From contig CABZJM010000009.1 of the NCBI GenBank assembly GCA_902526075.1, forward strand, positions 1 to 53,933: a DNA stretch of 53,933 nt, given 5' to 3'. How positions within the stretch are numbered: the stretch's first letter is position 1; every line of letters begins with the position of its first letter. Source of the DNA: an uncultured Bacteroidota bacterium. GTDB lineage: Bacteria > Bacteroidota > Bacteroidia > Flavobacteriales > Flavobacteriaceae. The translations under genes were made by a program, and so were the position numbers. This document shows positions 48,598 through 53,933 of this stretch, piece after piece. Under the pieces are notes generated by a model. It saw only the letters and a program-made list of their open reading frames with translations, was not told the DNA's origin and did not search any database.

Positions 48598-49620
48598 ATG
48601 ATAGACTTAAGAAGTGATACGATAACGAAACCATGTGATAGAATGCTTGACTTTATGCTCAATGCTAAAGTTGGAGATGATGTATATGGAGAGGATCTAA
48701 CGGTAAAAGAGTTGGAAAATAAAATTGCTAATTTTTTTGGAATGGAAAGTGCAATGTTTTTTCCATCTGGTACAATGGCTAATCAAACTGCTGTAAAAAT
48801 TCATACAAATCCAGGTGATCAGGTTATTGCTCATGAATATTCCCATGTCTACAATTATGAAGGAGGTGGAGCTTCTTTTAACAGTGGTGTGTCGTTCAAG
48901 CTTCTACAAGGTCAAAAAGGTATGTTTAATCCAGATCAATTAAAATATGCAATAAATCCAAAGAATTTTTATCACTCACCACTCACAAAATTAGTATCAT
49001 TGGAAAATACCACAAACAAGGGGGGTGGACACTGTTGGGATGTAAAACATTTTGAGGAAATAAAATTCATATGTGATGAAAATGGGCTTGGATTACACAT
49101 GGATGGTGCTAGGGTATGGAATTCAATAGTTGCCAAAGACAACAATCCTAAAATTTATGGAGATCATTTTGATACCATTTCTGTTTGTTTAAGTAAAGGG
49201 CTTGGTTGTCCAGTCGGTTCTGTATTAGTAGGTAGAAAACATTTTATTGATAAAGCATTAAGGATTAGAAAAATTTTAGGTGGGGGAATGCGTCAAGCAG
49301 GTTACTTAGCAGCAGCAGGGCTGTATGCTCTTGAAAACAATTTACAAAGACTCGCTTTTGATCATCAAAGAGCTAAGGAGATTGCATCTGGTCTTTTATC
49401 CAAGAATTGTATCAAGAGTGTAAATGAAGTAGAAACAAATATTATAATATTAGAGCTTGATGATTCTGTAGATAAGCAAACAATTATTGATTATTTTACA
49501 GAAAAAGAAATATTATTTGACTGGAATTCTATGGGGCTCAAAAAGATAAGAATTGTTACACATTTAAATTACACTGATCAAGAACATAAACTTTTACTTA
49601 AGGTTGTCGATAACTTATAG
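48598..49620 (+). CDS. Low-specificity threonine aldolase-type PLP enzyme
   Basis: This enzyme cleaves L-threonine or allo-threonine to glycine and acetaldehyde. The ATG at 48598 (MIDLRSDTITKP) is the family start; the 11 codons from 48565 read through the previous gene. Other blocks are VGDDVYGEDLTVKELE, FFPSGTMANQTA, HMDGARVWNS (PLP-binding Asp), the Schiff-base Lys in VCLSKGLGCPVGS, and GGGMRQAGYLAAAG. The length of 340 residues is normal. Related enzymes act on other beta-hydroxy amino acids, so the exact substrate is open. Confidence 0.9.
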   Translation: MIDLRSDTITKPCDRMLDFMLNAKVGDDVYGEDLTVKELENKIANFFGMESAMFFPSGTMANQTAVKIHTNPGDQVIAHEYSHVYNYEGGGASFNSGVSFKLLQGQKGMFNPDQLKYAINPKNFYHSPLTKLVSLENTTNKGGGHCWDVKHFEEIKFICDENGLGLHMDGARVWNSIVAKDNNPKIYGDHFDTISVCLSKGLGCPVGSVLVGRKHFIDKALRIRKILGGGMRQAGYLAAAGLYALENNLQRLAFDHQRAKEIASGLLSKNCIKSVNEVETNIIILELDDSVDKQTIIDYFTEKEILFDWNSMGLKKIRIVTHLNYTDQEHKLLLKVVDNL

Positions 49621-49687: not shown

Positions 49688-50731
49688 ATGAAAAAAAATA
49701 AAAATGTAGTTAACAATTTATTGGAGCTTGTGGGAAATACCCCTATGGTGAAAATTGATAATCTAACCAAAGACTTTAACGGTACTATCCTAGCTAAGCT
49801 TGAATCTGCTAATCCTGGTCATTCTTCAAAGGACAGAATTGCTTTGTATATTGTTGAGAGTGCTGAAAAAAAAGGTATTCTTAAGCCTGGTGATACAATT
49901 ATTGAAACTACATCAGGAAATACTGGATTTAGCCTAGCTATGGTGTCATTAATAAAAGGATACAAGTGTATTTTGGCTGTATCTTCCAAATCCTCAAGTG
50001 ATAAAATCGAAATGTTAAAGGCAATGGGTGCTACTGTTTATGTATGTCCTGCTAACGTGTCAGCTGATGATCCAAGATCGTATTATGAGGTTGCAAAAAG
50101 GCTTCACAGTGAAATTAAAGGCTCAATATACATTAATCAATATTTTAATGATTTAAATGCAGATGCACATTACTCATCAACAGGGCCAGAGATTTGGGAT
50201 CAAACTCAAGGAAAAATAACCTATTTAGTAGTTTGTAGTGGAACTGGAGGTACAATCTCTGGGACAGCTAGGTATCTTAAGGAAAAAAACCCAAATATCA
50301 AAGTAATTGGAGTTGATGCATATGGGTCTGTTCTTAAGAAATATCATGAAACTGGAGAATTTGACGAAAATGAAATATATCCGTATAGAATTGAAGGACT
50401 TGGGAAAAATTTAATTCCATCTGTGACTGATTTCGAAATTATCGATAGATATGTAAAGGTTACCGATGAAGATAGTGCACATTCCGCAAGGCAACTTGTT
50501 AAATATGAAGGTATTTTCGTTGGTTACACAAGTGGGGCGGCCTTTCAAGCTGTTAAGCAACTTAATCATGAAAAAGAATTTAATGAGTCAGACGTAGTAG
50601 TTGTAATTTTCCCTGATCATGGTTCAAGGTATTTGAGTAAAATTTATAGTGATAAGTGGATGGAAGATCAAGGATTTACTGATTCAAAAAGAGAAATTAA
50701 TAATAACGATATACAATATATTAGAAAATAA
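49688..50731 (+). CDS. Cysteine synthase/cystathionine beta-synthase-like enzyme, candidate cysteate synthase
   Basis: The 347-residue fold-type II PLP enzyme has the Schiff-base Lys in [12 protein letters not shown] (about 48; usual family form NPGGSVKDR), the substrate loop [12 protein letters not shown], and the PLP-phosphate loop [11 protein letters not shown]. It makes a C-S bond at the beta carbon of a serine-derived substrate. The start is the ATG at 49688. Its stop overlaps the next start (TAATG), so it is coupled to an alpha-oxoamine synthase of the capnine-forming type. That context suggests the product is cysteate, made with sulfite, in place of cysteine. The enzyme class is firm; the cysteate role is inference. 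Confidence 0.87.
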
Positions 50732-51975
50732 TGAGAGACCTATTTGATAGAATGCGCCAGGACAAAGGGCCACTAGGAAAATGGGCTGATATTGCTGAGG
50801 GATATTTTGCTTTTCCTAAGCTTGAAGGTCCCATTTCAAACAGGATGAATTTTAATGGAAAAGAAGTAATAACTTGGAGTGTCAATGACTACTTGGGATT
50901 AGCAAATGAACCTGAAGTGCGAAGAGTTGACACAGAAGCTGCTGCTAAGTATGGTTCAGCTTATCCAATGGGTGCTAGGTTGATGTCAGGCCACACAGAT
51001 TTGCATGAGAAACTTCAGAATCAATTAGCTGATTTTGTTAATAAAGAGGCTGCATATGTGTTAAATTTTGGATACCAAGGTATATTATCAACTATTGATT
51101 CTTTGGTAAGTAAAAATGATGTCATTGTTTATGATATTGATTCTCATGCTTGTATTATTGATGGGGTTAGACTTCATATTGGAAAAAGGTTTACTTATCA
51201 ACATAATGACATGGGTAGCCTTGAGAAAAATTTAAATAGAGCAACTAAAATAGCTGAAGAGACTAATGGAGGTATATTGGTTATTTCAGAAGGGGTTTTT
51301 GGAATGAGGGGCGAGCAAGGAAAATTAAGGGAGATTGTTGAGCTTAAGAAAAAATTTAAATTCCGATTACTTGTTGATGATGCTCATGGTTTTGGCACCC
51401 TAGGCAAGACTGGTGCTGGAGCAGGCGAGGAGCAAGGCGTTCAAGATGATATTGATGTCTATTTTGCCACGTTTGCTAAATCTCTTGCCAGTACAGGAGC
51501 GTTTATTGCATCTGACAAAGAAATTATAGATTTTTTAAAATATAATATGAGATCACAAGTTTTTGCAAAATCTTTACAAATGCAATTAGTTGAGGGTATT
51601 TTAAAGAGGCTAGAAATGTTGAGAACCAAACCTATATTTAAACAAAAACTTTGGGACAATGTAAACAAACTCCAATCTGGATTAAAAGAAAGAGGTTTTG
51701 ATATTGGTACCACTCAAAGTTGTGTAACTCCAGTATATTTAAAAGGTTCTGTTCCTGAAGCTATGGCATTGGTAAAAGATTTAAGAGAAAACTACAGGAT
51801 ATTTTGTTCTATAGTGGTTTATCCGGTAATTCCAAAGGGATTGATTTTACTTAGGCTTATTCCAACTGCTTCACACAACTTTGATGATATTCAGGAGACT
51901 TTGGAAGCTTTCTCCTCAATCAGGGAAAGATTAGTCACAGGAGTCTATAAAAAACTTTCTGAAAGCCTGAGCTAA
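50731..51975 (+). CDS. Alpha-oxoamine synthase, likely cysteate-fatty acyl transferase (capnine synthase)
   Basis: The 414-residue PLP enzyme belongs to the group of serine palmitoyltransferase, KBL and BioF. The Schiff-base Lys is about 250 in FATFAKSLAS. The cofactor Asp-x-x-His block is LVDDAHGFG (about 214-222), and the N-terminal WSVNDYLGLA and GSAYPMGARLMSG are family blocks. Such enzymes condense an amino acid with an acyl thioester and release CO2. In Flavobacterium johnsoniae a homologue makes the sulfonolipid precursor capnine from cysteate and is needed for efficient gliding. Coupling to a cysteine-synthase-like gene supports cysteate over serine. It overlaps the convergent acyltransferase gene by four bases. 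Confidence 0.85.
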   Translation: MRDLFDRMRQDKGPLGKWADIAEGYFAFPKLEGPISNRMNFNGKEVITWSVNDYLGLANEPEVRRVDTEAAAKYGSAYPMGARLMSGHTDLHEKLQNQLADFVNKEAAYVLNFGYQGILSTIDSLVSKNDVIVYDIDSHACIIDGVRLHIGKRFTYQHNDMGSLEKNLNRATKIAEETNGGILVISEGVFGMRGEQGKLREIVELKKKFKFRLLVDDAHGFGTLGKTGAGAGEEQGVQDDIDVYFATFAKSLASTGAFIASDKEIIDFLKYNMRSQVFAKSLQMQLVEGILKRLEMLRTKPIFKQKLWDNVNKLQSGLKERGFDIGTTQSCVTPVYLKGSVPEAMALVKDLRENYRIFCSIVVYPVIPKGLILLRLIPTASHNFDDIQETLEAFSSIRERLVTGVYKKLSESLS

Positions 51976-53093
51976 CTAAGGTTAAGCTTATAGGTTGATC
52001 TAGTTTTAATCAGTTTAGGATTGAAATTTTTCCATATTTTATCAATTGAAATATTATCTGTCAACTCAGGTGTTCGCCTACAAATTTGTATCCCCTTACC
52101 TTTAAGTGTTTGAATAAACGAATTAAATATTATTGCGGTAACTCCAAGTTTCTGATAATTTGGATCAATTCCAATAAGATATAAAATGACATCTTTATTA
52201 AATTTCTTTGCCCACAATAGATTTAAAAATCCAAAAGGAAACAATTTTCCATTCATTCTTTGTAAAGCCTTGGCAAATGAGGGCATTATAATAGCAAAAG
52301 CAACAATTTCCCTATTTTCATTTTCGACAAACTTTATATATTCAGGGTTTATAAACTTTATGTATTTTTCTTTCATAAATTCTTTTTGCTCCTGATTTAT
52401 TTTGACAAATGAGGAAAGTTTGGCATATGATCTATTAAACAGGTCAAACATTTCATTTGTTCTTTTCATTACCTCGCTTGTAGATGTAAAATTGACTTCA
52501 TTTAATTTATTTCTGGTTTTTACAATCCTACTCATCTTTTCATAGTAACCTGTGTCAATGTCCTCGAACATAAATGTTTTTTCATGGAAGTTTTTTTCAG
52601 TAATTAATCCATATTTTTCATAATGATTTACATAATAACTGTGATTGTACGCTGTTATCATGGTTCCGATTATCTCAAATCCACTAGTAAGCACCCCAAC
52701 TTTGTCCAAGTTGCTAAAACCCATTGGACCCTCCATGTATTTAAGTTTATTTTTCTTACCAGACTCTACAACTTTATCTAAAAGCAATTTACTTACTTCA
52801 AAATCATCAATAAAATCAAACCAGCCAAATCTAATTTTACTGGTTTTTTGTTCATTTACCTCATACCAGTTAATAATAACCGCTATTCTTCCAACAATTT
52901 CATCATTTTTTGATGCCACATATAATTTAACTTCAGCATTTTTAAGATTTGGATTTAGATCTTTATTGAAACTATTCATTTCCTGTTCAATAATATGAGG
53001 AACCCAATATTTTGAGCCTTTGTACAATTTAAATGGAAACATGACAAACTCTCTTAACTCTGAATCGTTAGAAACTTTTATAATATCAATCAT
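51972..53093 (-). CDS. GNAT-like acyltransferase, candidate sulfonolipid N-acyltransferase
   Basis: The 373-residue protein has two GNAT-type halves. The first has FPFKLYKGSKYWVPHI, an acetyl-CoA-fold strand pair with VGRIAVIIN, and GPMGFSNLDKVGVL. The second has FAIIMPSFAKAL and LIGIDPNYQKLGVTAIIF, a motif-A-like site. I recall similar proteins labelled, probably wrongly, as GTP cyclohydrolase in flavobacteria. They resemble the GNAT-fold ceramide synthase described in Caulobacter. Lying against the capnine synthase gene, it may add the N-acyl chain to capnine. The fold is moderately sure; the role is inference. Its ATG overlaps the stop of the upstream outer membrane gene (ATGA). Confidence 0.72.
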   Translation of the reverse strand: MIDIIKVSNDSELREFVMFPFKLYKGSKYWVPHIIEQEMNSFNKDLNPNLKNAEVKLYVASKNDEIVGRIAVIINWYEVNEQKTSKIRFGWFDFIDDFEVSKLLLDKVVESGKKNKLKYMEGPMGFSNLDKVGVLTSGFEIIGTMITAYNHSYYVNHYEKYGLITEKNFHEKTFMFEDIDTGYYEKMSRIVKTRNKLNEVNFTSTSEVMKRTNEMFDLFNRSYAKLSSFVKINQEQKEFMKEKYIKFINPEYIKFVENENREIVAFAIIMPSFAKALQRMNGKLFPFGFLNLLWAKKFNKDVILYLIGIDPNYQKLGVTAIIFNSFIQTLKGKGIQICRRTPELTDNISIDKIWKNFNPKLIKTRSTYKLNLS

Positions 53094-53933
53094 TTTATTG
53101 CATTTAAATTAAGTCTGTAGCTCAATCCTAGGCCCACATTAAATATTTGTGGAGTATCTTTAAAGTTTACACTAACACCCGAATCAATTTGAAGATTATC
53201 AGTAAATAGAAATGCAACTCCGAAATTCACTTTGTTTTCAGCATAATAATCACTTTTTATTGCATGGGTTTCGATAAATCCAATCATACTTTCACTAAAC
53301 GCGTGGGTTAACGAAACAATATATTCGAAATCATTTTGTGATGAACCAATTCTCTCAAAGATTAAATTTGTTGTGATAACGGATCTGTATGTGATATTGC
53401 TTTGTGTAAAAATTGCTGCTGATGGACTAATACCGCTCAAATTCGTATTTGTGTATGGATTATTTCTTGAATCCAAATTTATTCCAACGTATGCTGAAAT
53501 TGCTGGAATGAGATTTTTCCATTCAAATTTTTTATCTGCAAAATAACTGTACACGTTGGGTTTTTTAACTTCACCCTTTGTTGGGTCATAAATTAGATAT
53601 TTAGCTCCAATTTTAAATTTTTTGAAGTTTTTTCTGTCAAAACTATTAGATGGTAAATATCGATTATCGGTAAAATTATCTGTCTGATATACTCCATCTA
53701 TTATGAGCTCTAGTTTATCTATTAGAAGCCCGTATCTAATTTTAAAGTCTGCTCCAAGGCCTTTAACCCTGTAGTTTAATAATTGATGTTCCTCATTAGT
53801 GTAATAAAAACCGTTTTCAAGTTGTAGTATATTTTTACCTACAGCGAAAGCGCCAGATGAGCTGCCCGGTCTATTTGAATTAATTATTTCAGTAAACTGT
53901 GAGTAACCGAGGTTAAATTTTAAAATAAAAATA
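53090..53933 (-). CDS. Outer membrane beta-barrel protein (transporter/phenol-degradation MetA-like), 5' end beyond window
   Basis: The frame ending at 53090 stays open to the right edge of the window (first full codon at 53932), so the start lies outside and at least 280 residues are visible. The visible N-terminal part reads INSNRPGSSSGAFAVGKN, then LQLENGFYY, followed by alternating amphipathic strands and a final strand ending LSYRLNLNAIK. This resembles the PF13557-type outer membrane 'transporter' barrels of flavobacteria. The GTG at 53554 within this frame is only an internal codon. Coupling to the GNAT-like gene suggests a joint envelope role. Confidence 0.72.
   Translation of the reverse strand, partial: IFILKFNLGYSQFTEIINSNRPGSSSGAFAVGKNILQLENGFYYTNEEHQLLNYRVKGLGADFKIRYGLLIDKLELIIDGVYQTDNFTDNRYLPSNSFDRKNFKKFKIGAKYLIYDPTKGEVKKPNVYSYFADKKFEWKNLIPAISAYVGINLDSRNNPYTNTNLSGISPSAAIFTQSNITYRSVITTNLIFERIGSSQNDFEYIVSLTHAFSESMIGFIETHAIKSDYYAENKVNFGVAFLFTDNLQIDSGVSVNFKDTPQIFNVGLGLSYRLNLNAIK

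Follow-up and report, generated by a model that had tools for sequence, protein, structure and literature searches.

Two overlapping genes of an uncultured Bacteroidota bacterium, capA and capB, are predicted with high confidence to form an operon of an already known kind that would start the synthesis of capnine, and the organism is very likely to make sulfonolipids. The DNA analyzed (the window, 53,933 nucleotides of contig CABZJM010000009.1) is contig 9 of a 1.24-Mb metagenome-assembled genome (MAG) that is 62% complete. The capA-type gene (49688..50731, plus strand, 347 aa) runs from an ATG at 49688 to a TAA ending at 50731, and the capB/sulA-type gene (50731..51975, plus strand, 414 aa) from an ATG at 50731 to a TAA ending at 51975. 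A one-base overlap of the two open reading frames had been noted in an earlier, sequence-only reading of this DNA and was confirmed: the capA stop codon and the capB start codon have one base in common in the sequence TAATG (50729..50733, plus strand, AAAATAATGAGAGACC). A third gene, which encodes a tandem-GNAT protein and converges with capB, is considered below as a candidate for the N-acylation of the lipid.

The CapA protein scored 622.5 bits against the NCBIfam equivalog model NF053679 (CysteaSynCapA, cysteate synthase), above the cut-off of 600. The second-best model, that of cystathionine beta-synthase (CBS), reached 397.5 bits and stayed below its cut-off of 510, as CapA did for the CysK, CysM and SbnA models. 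The closest structure in the PDB was 9k2p (505 bits), which is named only 'Pyridoxal-5'-phosphate-dependent protein beta subunit', and the next was a CBS with 288 bits. Cysteine synthase and CBS were rejected as identities for CapA because their models fell below the cut-offs and the PDB ranking was contrary to them, and the assignment of the first enzyme as a cysteate synthase in the sequence-only reading was upheld. Lys46 of CapA lies within GHSSKDR, and the motifs TSGNTG and SGTGGT begin at residues 75 and 184, respectively. We take Lys46 to be the pyridoxal 5'-phosphate (PLP) lysine and the two motifs to be the PLP-phosphate loops of a fold-type II PLP enzyme.

A sample of 296 genomes from the window's phylum, evenly drawn and at least 90% complete except for the MAG itself, served to follow the distribution of the genes; gene positions in this sample refer to the matches listed, that is, the strongest ones. 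The window's family, presumably the Flavobacteriaceae, is represented by 30 genomes, the MAG and 29 others. The NF053679 cut-off was passed in 30 of the 296 genomes, which were exactly the 30 of this family, and in the next family (f2) the CapA-like proteins remained under it at 540-552 bits. CapB scored at least 666 bits in all 30 genomes of the window's family. The MAG also encodes a second, weaker CapA-family match of 467 bits at C10:31139-32104, which is perhaps a CBS-like paralogue.

The closest solved structure to CapB was 28eh (682 bits over residues 1-412), which like 28fa is a Cysteate-C-fatty acyltransferase, followed by 7u7h, SulA of Alistipes finegoldii (556 bits over residues 1-409). 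The serine palmitoyltransferase (SPT) structure 3a2b matched with 245 bits, more than 300 bits below the cysteate enzymes. In the alignment with SulA, Asn52, His139, Lys250, Lys280 and Arg375 of CapB correspond to Asn53, His140, Lys251, Lys281 and Arg376, so that the two proteins agree at five active-site positions, the diagnostic lysine among them. Passages of the SulA study describe Asn53, His140, Lys251 and Arg376 as also present in SPT, and name Lys281, an alanine in SPT, as the residue that distinguishes cysteate enzymes (PMC9304779). With this lysine changed to alanine, SulA reportedly still binds cysteate but shows no turnover. Lys250 of CapB lies in FATFAKSL, and both this lysine and Lys46 of CapA are the ones that the sequence-only reading had named. 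Among 60 named loci gathered with the GNAT protein as query (the 60-locus set), 39 of the 40 genes for alpha-oxoamine synthases (AOS) had the diagnostic lysine; the exception, a Bacteroidales locus (L056), had alanine. The SPT-type AOS genes that stand beside genes of the ceramide synthase (CerS) type had alanine at this site in every aligned locus.

The proteins belong to the same superfamilies as SPT, BioF and Kbl on the one side and cysteine synthase and CBS on the other, and a sphingolipid or amino-acid locus built from such enzymes would have in its favor that an SPT model, NF047600, was the top NCBIfam match for CapB, with the CBS model in second place for CapA. The SPT models, however, remained far below their cut-offs (NF047600, 299.7 bits for a cut-off of 640; NF047599, 275.2 for 500; NF047603, 200.2 for 670), the nearest CapB structures are those of cysteate enzymes, Lys280 stands where SPT has alanine, and the separate 467-bit match may already account for a CBS-like protein in the genome. 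SPT, BioF and Kbl were rejected as identities of CapB on the basis of the cut-offs and the nearest structures, in agreement with the cysteate-type enzyme originally proposed, and we regard a sphingolipid or amino-acid locus as very improbable. Both CapA and CapB matched curated families or solved structures at E-values of 1e-150 or better, and the pair of open reading frames is therefore not a chance occurrence.

Some observations weigh against a capnine operon. No CapB-specific NCBIfam model was present among the CapB matches, and the membership of CapB therefore rests on its nearest structures and its residues. The choice between O-phosphoserine and O-acetylserine as the CapA substrate cannot be read from the sequence alone, and in the 62% complete MAG the reductase was not pinned down among the short-chain dehydrogenases/reductases (SDRs).

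The reactions of the pathway were taken from the literature on relatives, and we infer the same activities for the proteins of the window. CapA would replace the phosphate of O-phosphoserine with sulfite to give L-cysteate. CapB would bind cysteate as a PLP aldimine and condense it with a fatty acyl thioester, presumably an acyl-acyl carrier protein (acyl-ACP) as in SulA, with loss of CO2, to yield 3-ketocapnine. A short-chain dehydrogenase encoded elsewhere would reduce 3-ketocapnine to capnine, and an N-acyltransferase would produce the sulfonolipid (N-acylcapnine), with reduction and acylation in either order. The gene pair covers the first two of these four steps. Passages of PMC10191378 describe the conversion of phosphoserine to cysteate by CapA, the formation of 3-ketocapnine by CapB, its reduction by CapC and then an N-acylation for which they name no enzyme. 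The earlier proposal that a serine derivative and sulfite are turned into cysteate agreed with the family match of CapA and could be refined to phosphoserine according to the same source. For the second enzyme the cysteate condensation class was retained, and its proposed product, capnine, was replaced by 3-ketocapnine, the product given for SulA in passages of PMC9304779. The idea of a compact headgroup-and-backbone module held for the first two steps, but the ketoreductase is not linked, and the N-acyltransferase, if it is encoded here at all, would be the adjacent gene on the opposite strand.

No reductase linked to capA-capB was found in the window. The MAG contains five SDR matches, of which the four above the PF00106 cut-off are all on contigs other than that of the window, and it also encodes SprA; these findings are consistent with the reductase step and with gliding and secretion machinery. 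The reductases of C. gleum and A. finegoldii were tested in a study whose passages place them outside a cluster with the first two genes (PMC11211663). The same two enzymes as in the window, CapA and CapB, are described in passages on the work of Liu et al. 2022 with Capnocytophaga ochracea, where their accessions are consecutive (C7M8J5 and C7M8J6; PMC10191378, PMC12927429); this is another species, likened here by description, and the window pair has the one-base overlap. According to passages of PMC10191378, the cysteate of Alistipes comes from an enzyme homologous to the archaeal cysteate synthase and not to CapA.

In the 60-locus set, capB was present in 39 loci. In 35 of these, capA was at most 1 kb away in the same orientation; in one (L032) the distance was 5.5 kb, and in the remaining three (L006, L021 and L030) the DNA ended before capA could appear. 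The exact one-base overlap of the two genes was found in half of the 12 near relatives (L003, L004, L005, L007, L008 and L012) and is a local trait; elsewhere the spacing was 1 base (L009, L010), 11 bases (L011, L013), 23 bases (L044) or 25 bases (L014). The CapA-like and CapB genes of family f2 were adjacent in all six genomes among the matches listed. Genes for CapB also occurred on large plasmids of Bernardetia (L071) and Aureibacter tunicatorum (H1), with 59-60% identity over 98% of the query, and no capA or GNAT gene was found nearby in the stretch around capB of the Bernardetia plasmid. An AOS on a Spirosoma plasmid (L072:5932-7131) was 47% identical to the CapB of the window and carried arginine at the position of the diagnostic lysine (FGRTLP), perhaps representing a third substrate type. 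In two further genomes of the phylum sample (L076:2145-5576 in G254 and L078:3472-6852 in G179), a Pfam run on these two proteins showed a fatty acyl-AMP ligase, an acyl carrier domain and a C-terminal, lysine-type CapB-like AOS in one chain. These fused proteins have 1126-1143 aa, a similar long frame is present in L077 (G219), and the L076 and L078 proteins are possible one-chain 3-ketocapnine synthases.

Downstream of capB, the tandem-GNAT gene (51972..53093, minus strand, 373 aa), a putative N-acyltransferase gene, is placed tail to tail with it, two bases being common to both stop codons. The start of the GNAT gene overlaps by 4 bases the end of a gene for an outer-membrane beta-barrel-like protein (53090..53932, minus strand), whose 5' end lies beyond the window and which matched PF13557 with 85 bits; we take PF13557 to be an outer-membrane beta-barrel family. 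A PDB search with the GNAT sequence returned 0 matches up to an E-value of 10. The structure model (predicted local distance difference test score, pLDDT, 92.7) had a tandem GNAT fold, and its best PDB matches were 5kf1, a glucosamine N-acetyltransferase, and tandem GNATs with 6-13% identity. N-acylation of an amine is very probably the activity of this protein. No capnine N-acyltransferase, nor a candidate gene for one, was found in the literature searched (titles, abstract beginnings and selected passages). The GNAT protein might be this missing enzyme and transfer an acyl or 3-hydroxyacyl group to the amino group of either capnine or 3-ketocapnine, in the manner of CerS with sphingoid bases; we give this proposal slightly less than an even chance.

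The linkage of the GNAT gene to capB is in line with this proposal. A lysine-type AOS gene (capB) was convergent within 1.5 kb of the GNAT gene in 37 loci of the 60-locus set and farther away in two (L030, L031), an alanine-type SPT was the neighbor in one (L056), and no AOS was found in the stretches of the other 20, some of which ended at contig ends. Co-occurrence was uninformative: relatives of the GNAT protein were found in 283 of the 296 genomes (1e-10) and any AOS in 290 (1e-40). Because both superfamilies are nearly universal in the phylum sample, the analysis turned to linkage. In the window's family, capB was present in all 29 other genomes and the GNAT gene in 28. Among the matches listed, 21 genomes had the GNAT gene in convergent orientation no more than 1 kb from capB, and 11 had an adjacent capA; capB had both neighbors in 8 genomes, GNAT only in 13, capA only in 3 and neither in 5. 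The GNAT-capB link is kept more often than the capA-capB link in this sample. In genus g2, a small lipoprotein-like open reading frame of 155-183 aa separated capB and the GNAT gene in two loci (L082, L083), the gap between the two genes measured 659-944 bases in 10 more genomes, and it was 83 bases in G057.

The outer-membrane protein gene is an at least equally constant neighbor of the GNAT gene. Of 23 same-family loci examined, 22 hold a GNAT gene, and in each of these the outer-membrane protein gene precedes it in the same orientation, no more than 1 kb away. A gene for a GntG-type PLP aldolase (48598..49620, plus strand), which scored 361.8 bits against NF041359 (cut-off 230), was separated from capA by 2.6-5.0 kb at the 8 loci where capB adjoins both capA and the GNAT gene, and it was not found in the stretches of the other 15. 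This comparison with the outer-membrane gene and the aldolase indicates that much of the block is conserved synteny, and the link of the GNAT gene to capB is no firmer than its link to the outer-membrane gene. The GNAT protein could accordingly work with the outer-membrane protein and acylate another amine, such as that of an amino-acid lipid, a peptide or a sugar, the position beside capB being inherited. The 4-base overlap in the window and the 22 of 22 retained pairs argue for such a role, as do two loci (L038, L062) in which the pair is present and capB is absent from the fetched stretch. On the other hand, the GNAT gene stays beside capB in 13 genomes where neither an adjacent capA nor an aldolase was found in the stretch. 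We judge an amine outside the capnine pathway to be plausible, at a probability just short of one half.

The distribution of the GNAT gene also provides arguments against its being the capnine N-acyltransferase. It lies on the strand opposite to capB, and the outer-membrane gene is linked to it more constantly. A GNAT neighbor was found in none of the 20 capB loci of families f3-f10, where capA was not found either, and in none of the six f2 genomes among the matches listed. Five genomes with a strong CapB (G053, G041, G064, G158 and G178) showed no GNAT relative at 1e-10. Relatives of about 250 bits were present in genomes whose best AOS was only SPT-like, for example G047, G124 and G267. Many members of the wider group, for example from a Spirochaete and Chloroflexota, have no AOS neighbor and stand in varied, unrelated contexts.

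In favor of the capnine N-acyltransferase is the distant homology of the GNAT protein to genes in the position of CerS, together with its tandem GNAT fold. The protein matched plasmid genes of Klebsiella, Rahnella, Roseomonas marmotae, Aureispira and Rubrobacter with E-values of 2e-21 to 3e-29 over 89-99% of the query, and its identity to genes in CerS position was 22-28% over 89% or more of the length. In Rahnella the order is fatty acyl-AMP ligase, epimerase, ACP and AOS with a divergent GNAT gene, which is the five-gene set that passages of PMC11324152 describe for Caulobacter. Further relatives in CerS position were found in a Roseomonas cluster, as AOS-GNAT-oxidoreductase in Rubrobacter and as AOS-GNAT in Aureispira. 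The Rubrobacter set, on a plasmid of the actinomycete R. radiotolerans (L066:4707-8074), is tight and apparently belongs to a ceramide route. Neither a Diaphorobacter lipid cluster nor a Chloroflexota plasmid stretch contained an AOS-GNAT pair, there being no AOS in either. The comparison with the CerS (bCerS) reference, CC_1154 of Caulobacter, as given in passages of PMC11324152 and PMC11087976, was made through these genes in CerS position and not with CC_1154 itself.

The association of such GNAT genes with SPT was followed at 14 SPT loci (L119-L132), which were chosen among the matches listed regardless of GNAT and include none of the 17 pairs known beforehand. A GNAT gene of the same superfamily followed SPT directly on the same strand in 13 of them, all but L130, which supports the N-acyltransferase proposal. 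Pairs of SPT and GNAT genes were also seen at L079-L081 and at other loci of the window's phylum. According to passages of PMC11334938, sphingolipid-producing Bacteroidota do not have spt, bCerS and cerR near one another; as regards spt and a CerS-clade gene, the present pairs disagree with this.

A tree of 95 GNAT proteins was calculated in quick mode after removal of 19 near-copies from 114, with the truncated loci L047 and L060 absent. The Rahnella and Roseomonas rows, whose spt genes lie 3.7 and 7.5 kb away, were set to SPT-linked by hand. The CerS clade (starred, 30 rows, including Rahnella and Roseomonas) comprised 26 of the 28 SPT-linked rows and four unlinked ones. The clade of the window's GNAT protein (starred, 36 rows) comprised all 23 capB-linked rows and 13 others, and it was separate from the CerS clade. 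Outside both were unlinked Spirochaete, Chloroflexota and Bacteroidales relatives and the SPT-linked L056 and L080. The GNAT protein was therefore rejected as a simple CerS orthologue, and its place outside the CerS clade weighs against the N-acyltransferase proposal, although L056 and L080, also outside that clade, still adjoin an SPT. Positions such as Gly68-Arg69, Gly122-Pro123, Gly282 and Asn347 of the GNAT protein were common to 26 of 26 CerS-clade rows, with a mean identity of about 24%; the GNAT gene adjoins capB, whereas CerS adjoins spt.

Weighing these observations, we tentatively propose, and hold it to be somewhat less probable than its negation, that the GNAT gene encodes a capnine or 3-ketocapnine N-acyltransferase of the Flavobacteriaceae which arose in parallel to CerS from one family of tandem GNATs that N-acylate long-chain bases, and whose outer-membrane partner may help to place the lipid in the outer membrane. 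A part of this partner in lipid export is a guess.

In the closest relatives the gene for the GntG-type aldolase immediately precedes capA, and in many others it is 2-6 kb off. The aldolase was considered as a supplier of serine or glycine and set aside, and is probably a bystander outside the pathway. The nearest named relatives of the window are uncultured Bacteroidetes and Flavobacteriaceae, with 94 to 83% identity of the GNAT protein in the first six loci, and the names of these nearest kin suggest that the source organism is probably marine.

Sulfonolipids are sulfur-containing analogues of sphingolipids and are known from related bacteria. Passages of PMC10191378 and PMC11211663 connect them with gliding, with inflammation and with the formation of rosettes by choanoflagellates. 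Given its capA-capB pair, the source organism, an uncultured and probably marine flavobacterium, very likely makes these lipids. Of greater use is a candidate gene for the N-acylation step: the GNAT gene, which stands beside capB across much of the family and has distant homology to CerS, offers a single testable candidate for how sulfonolipids may be N-acylated.

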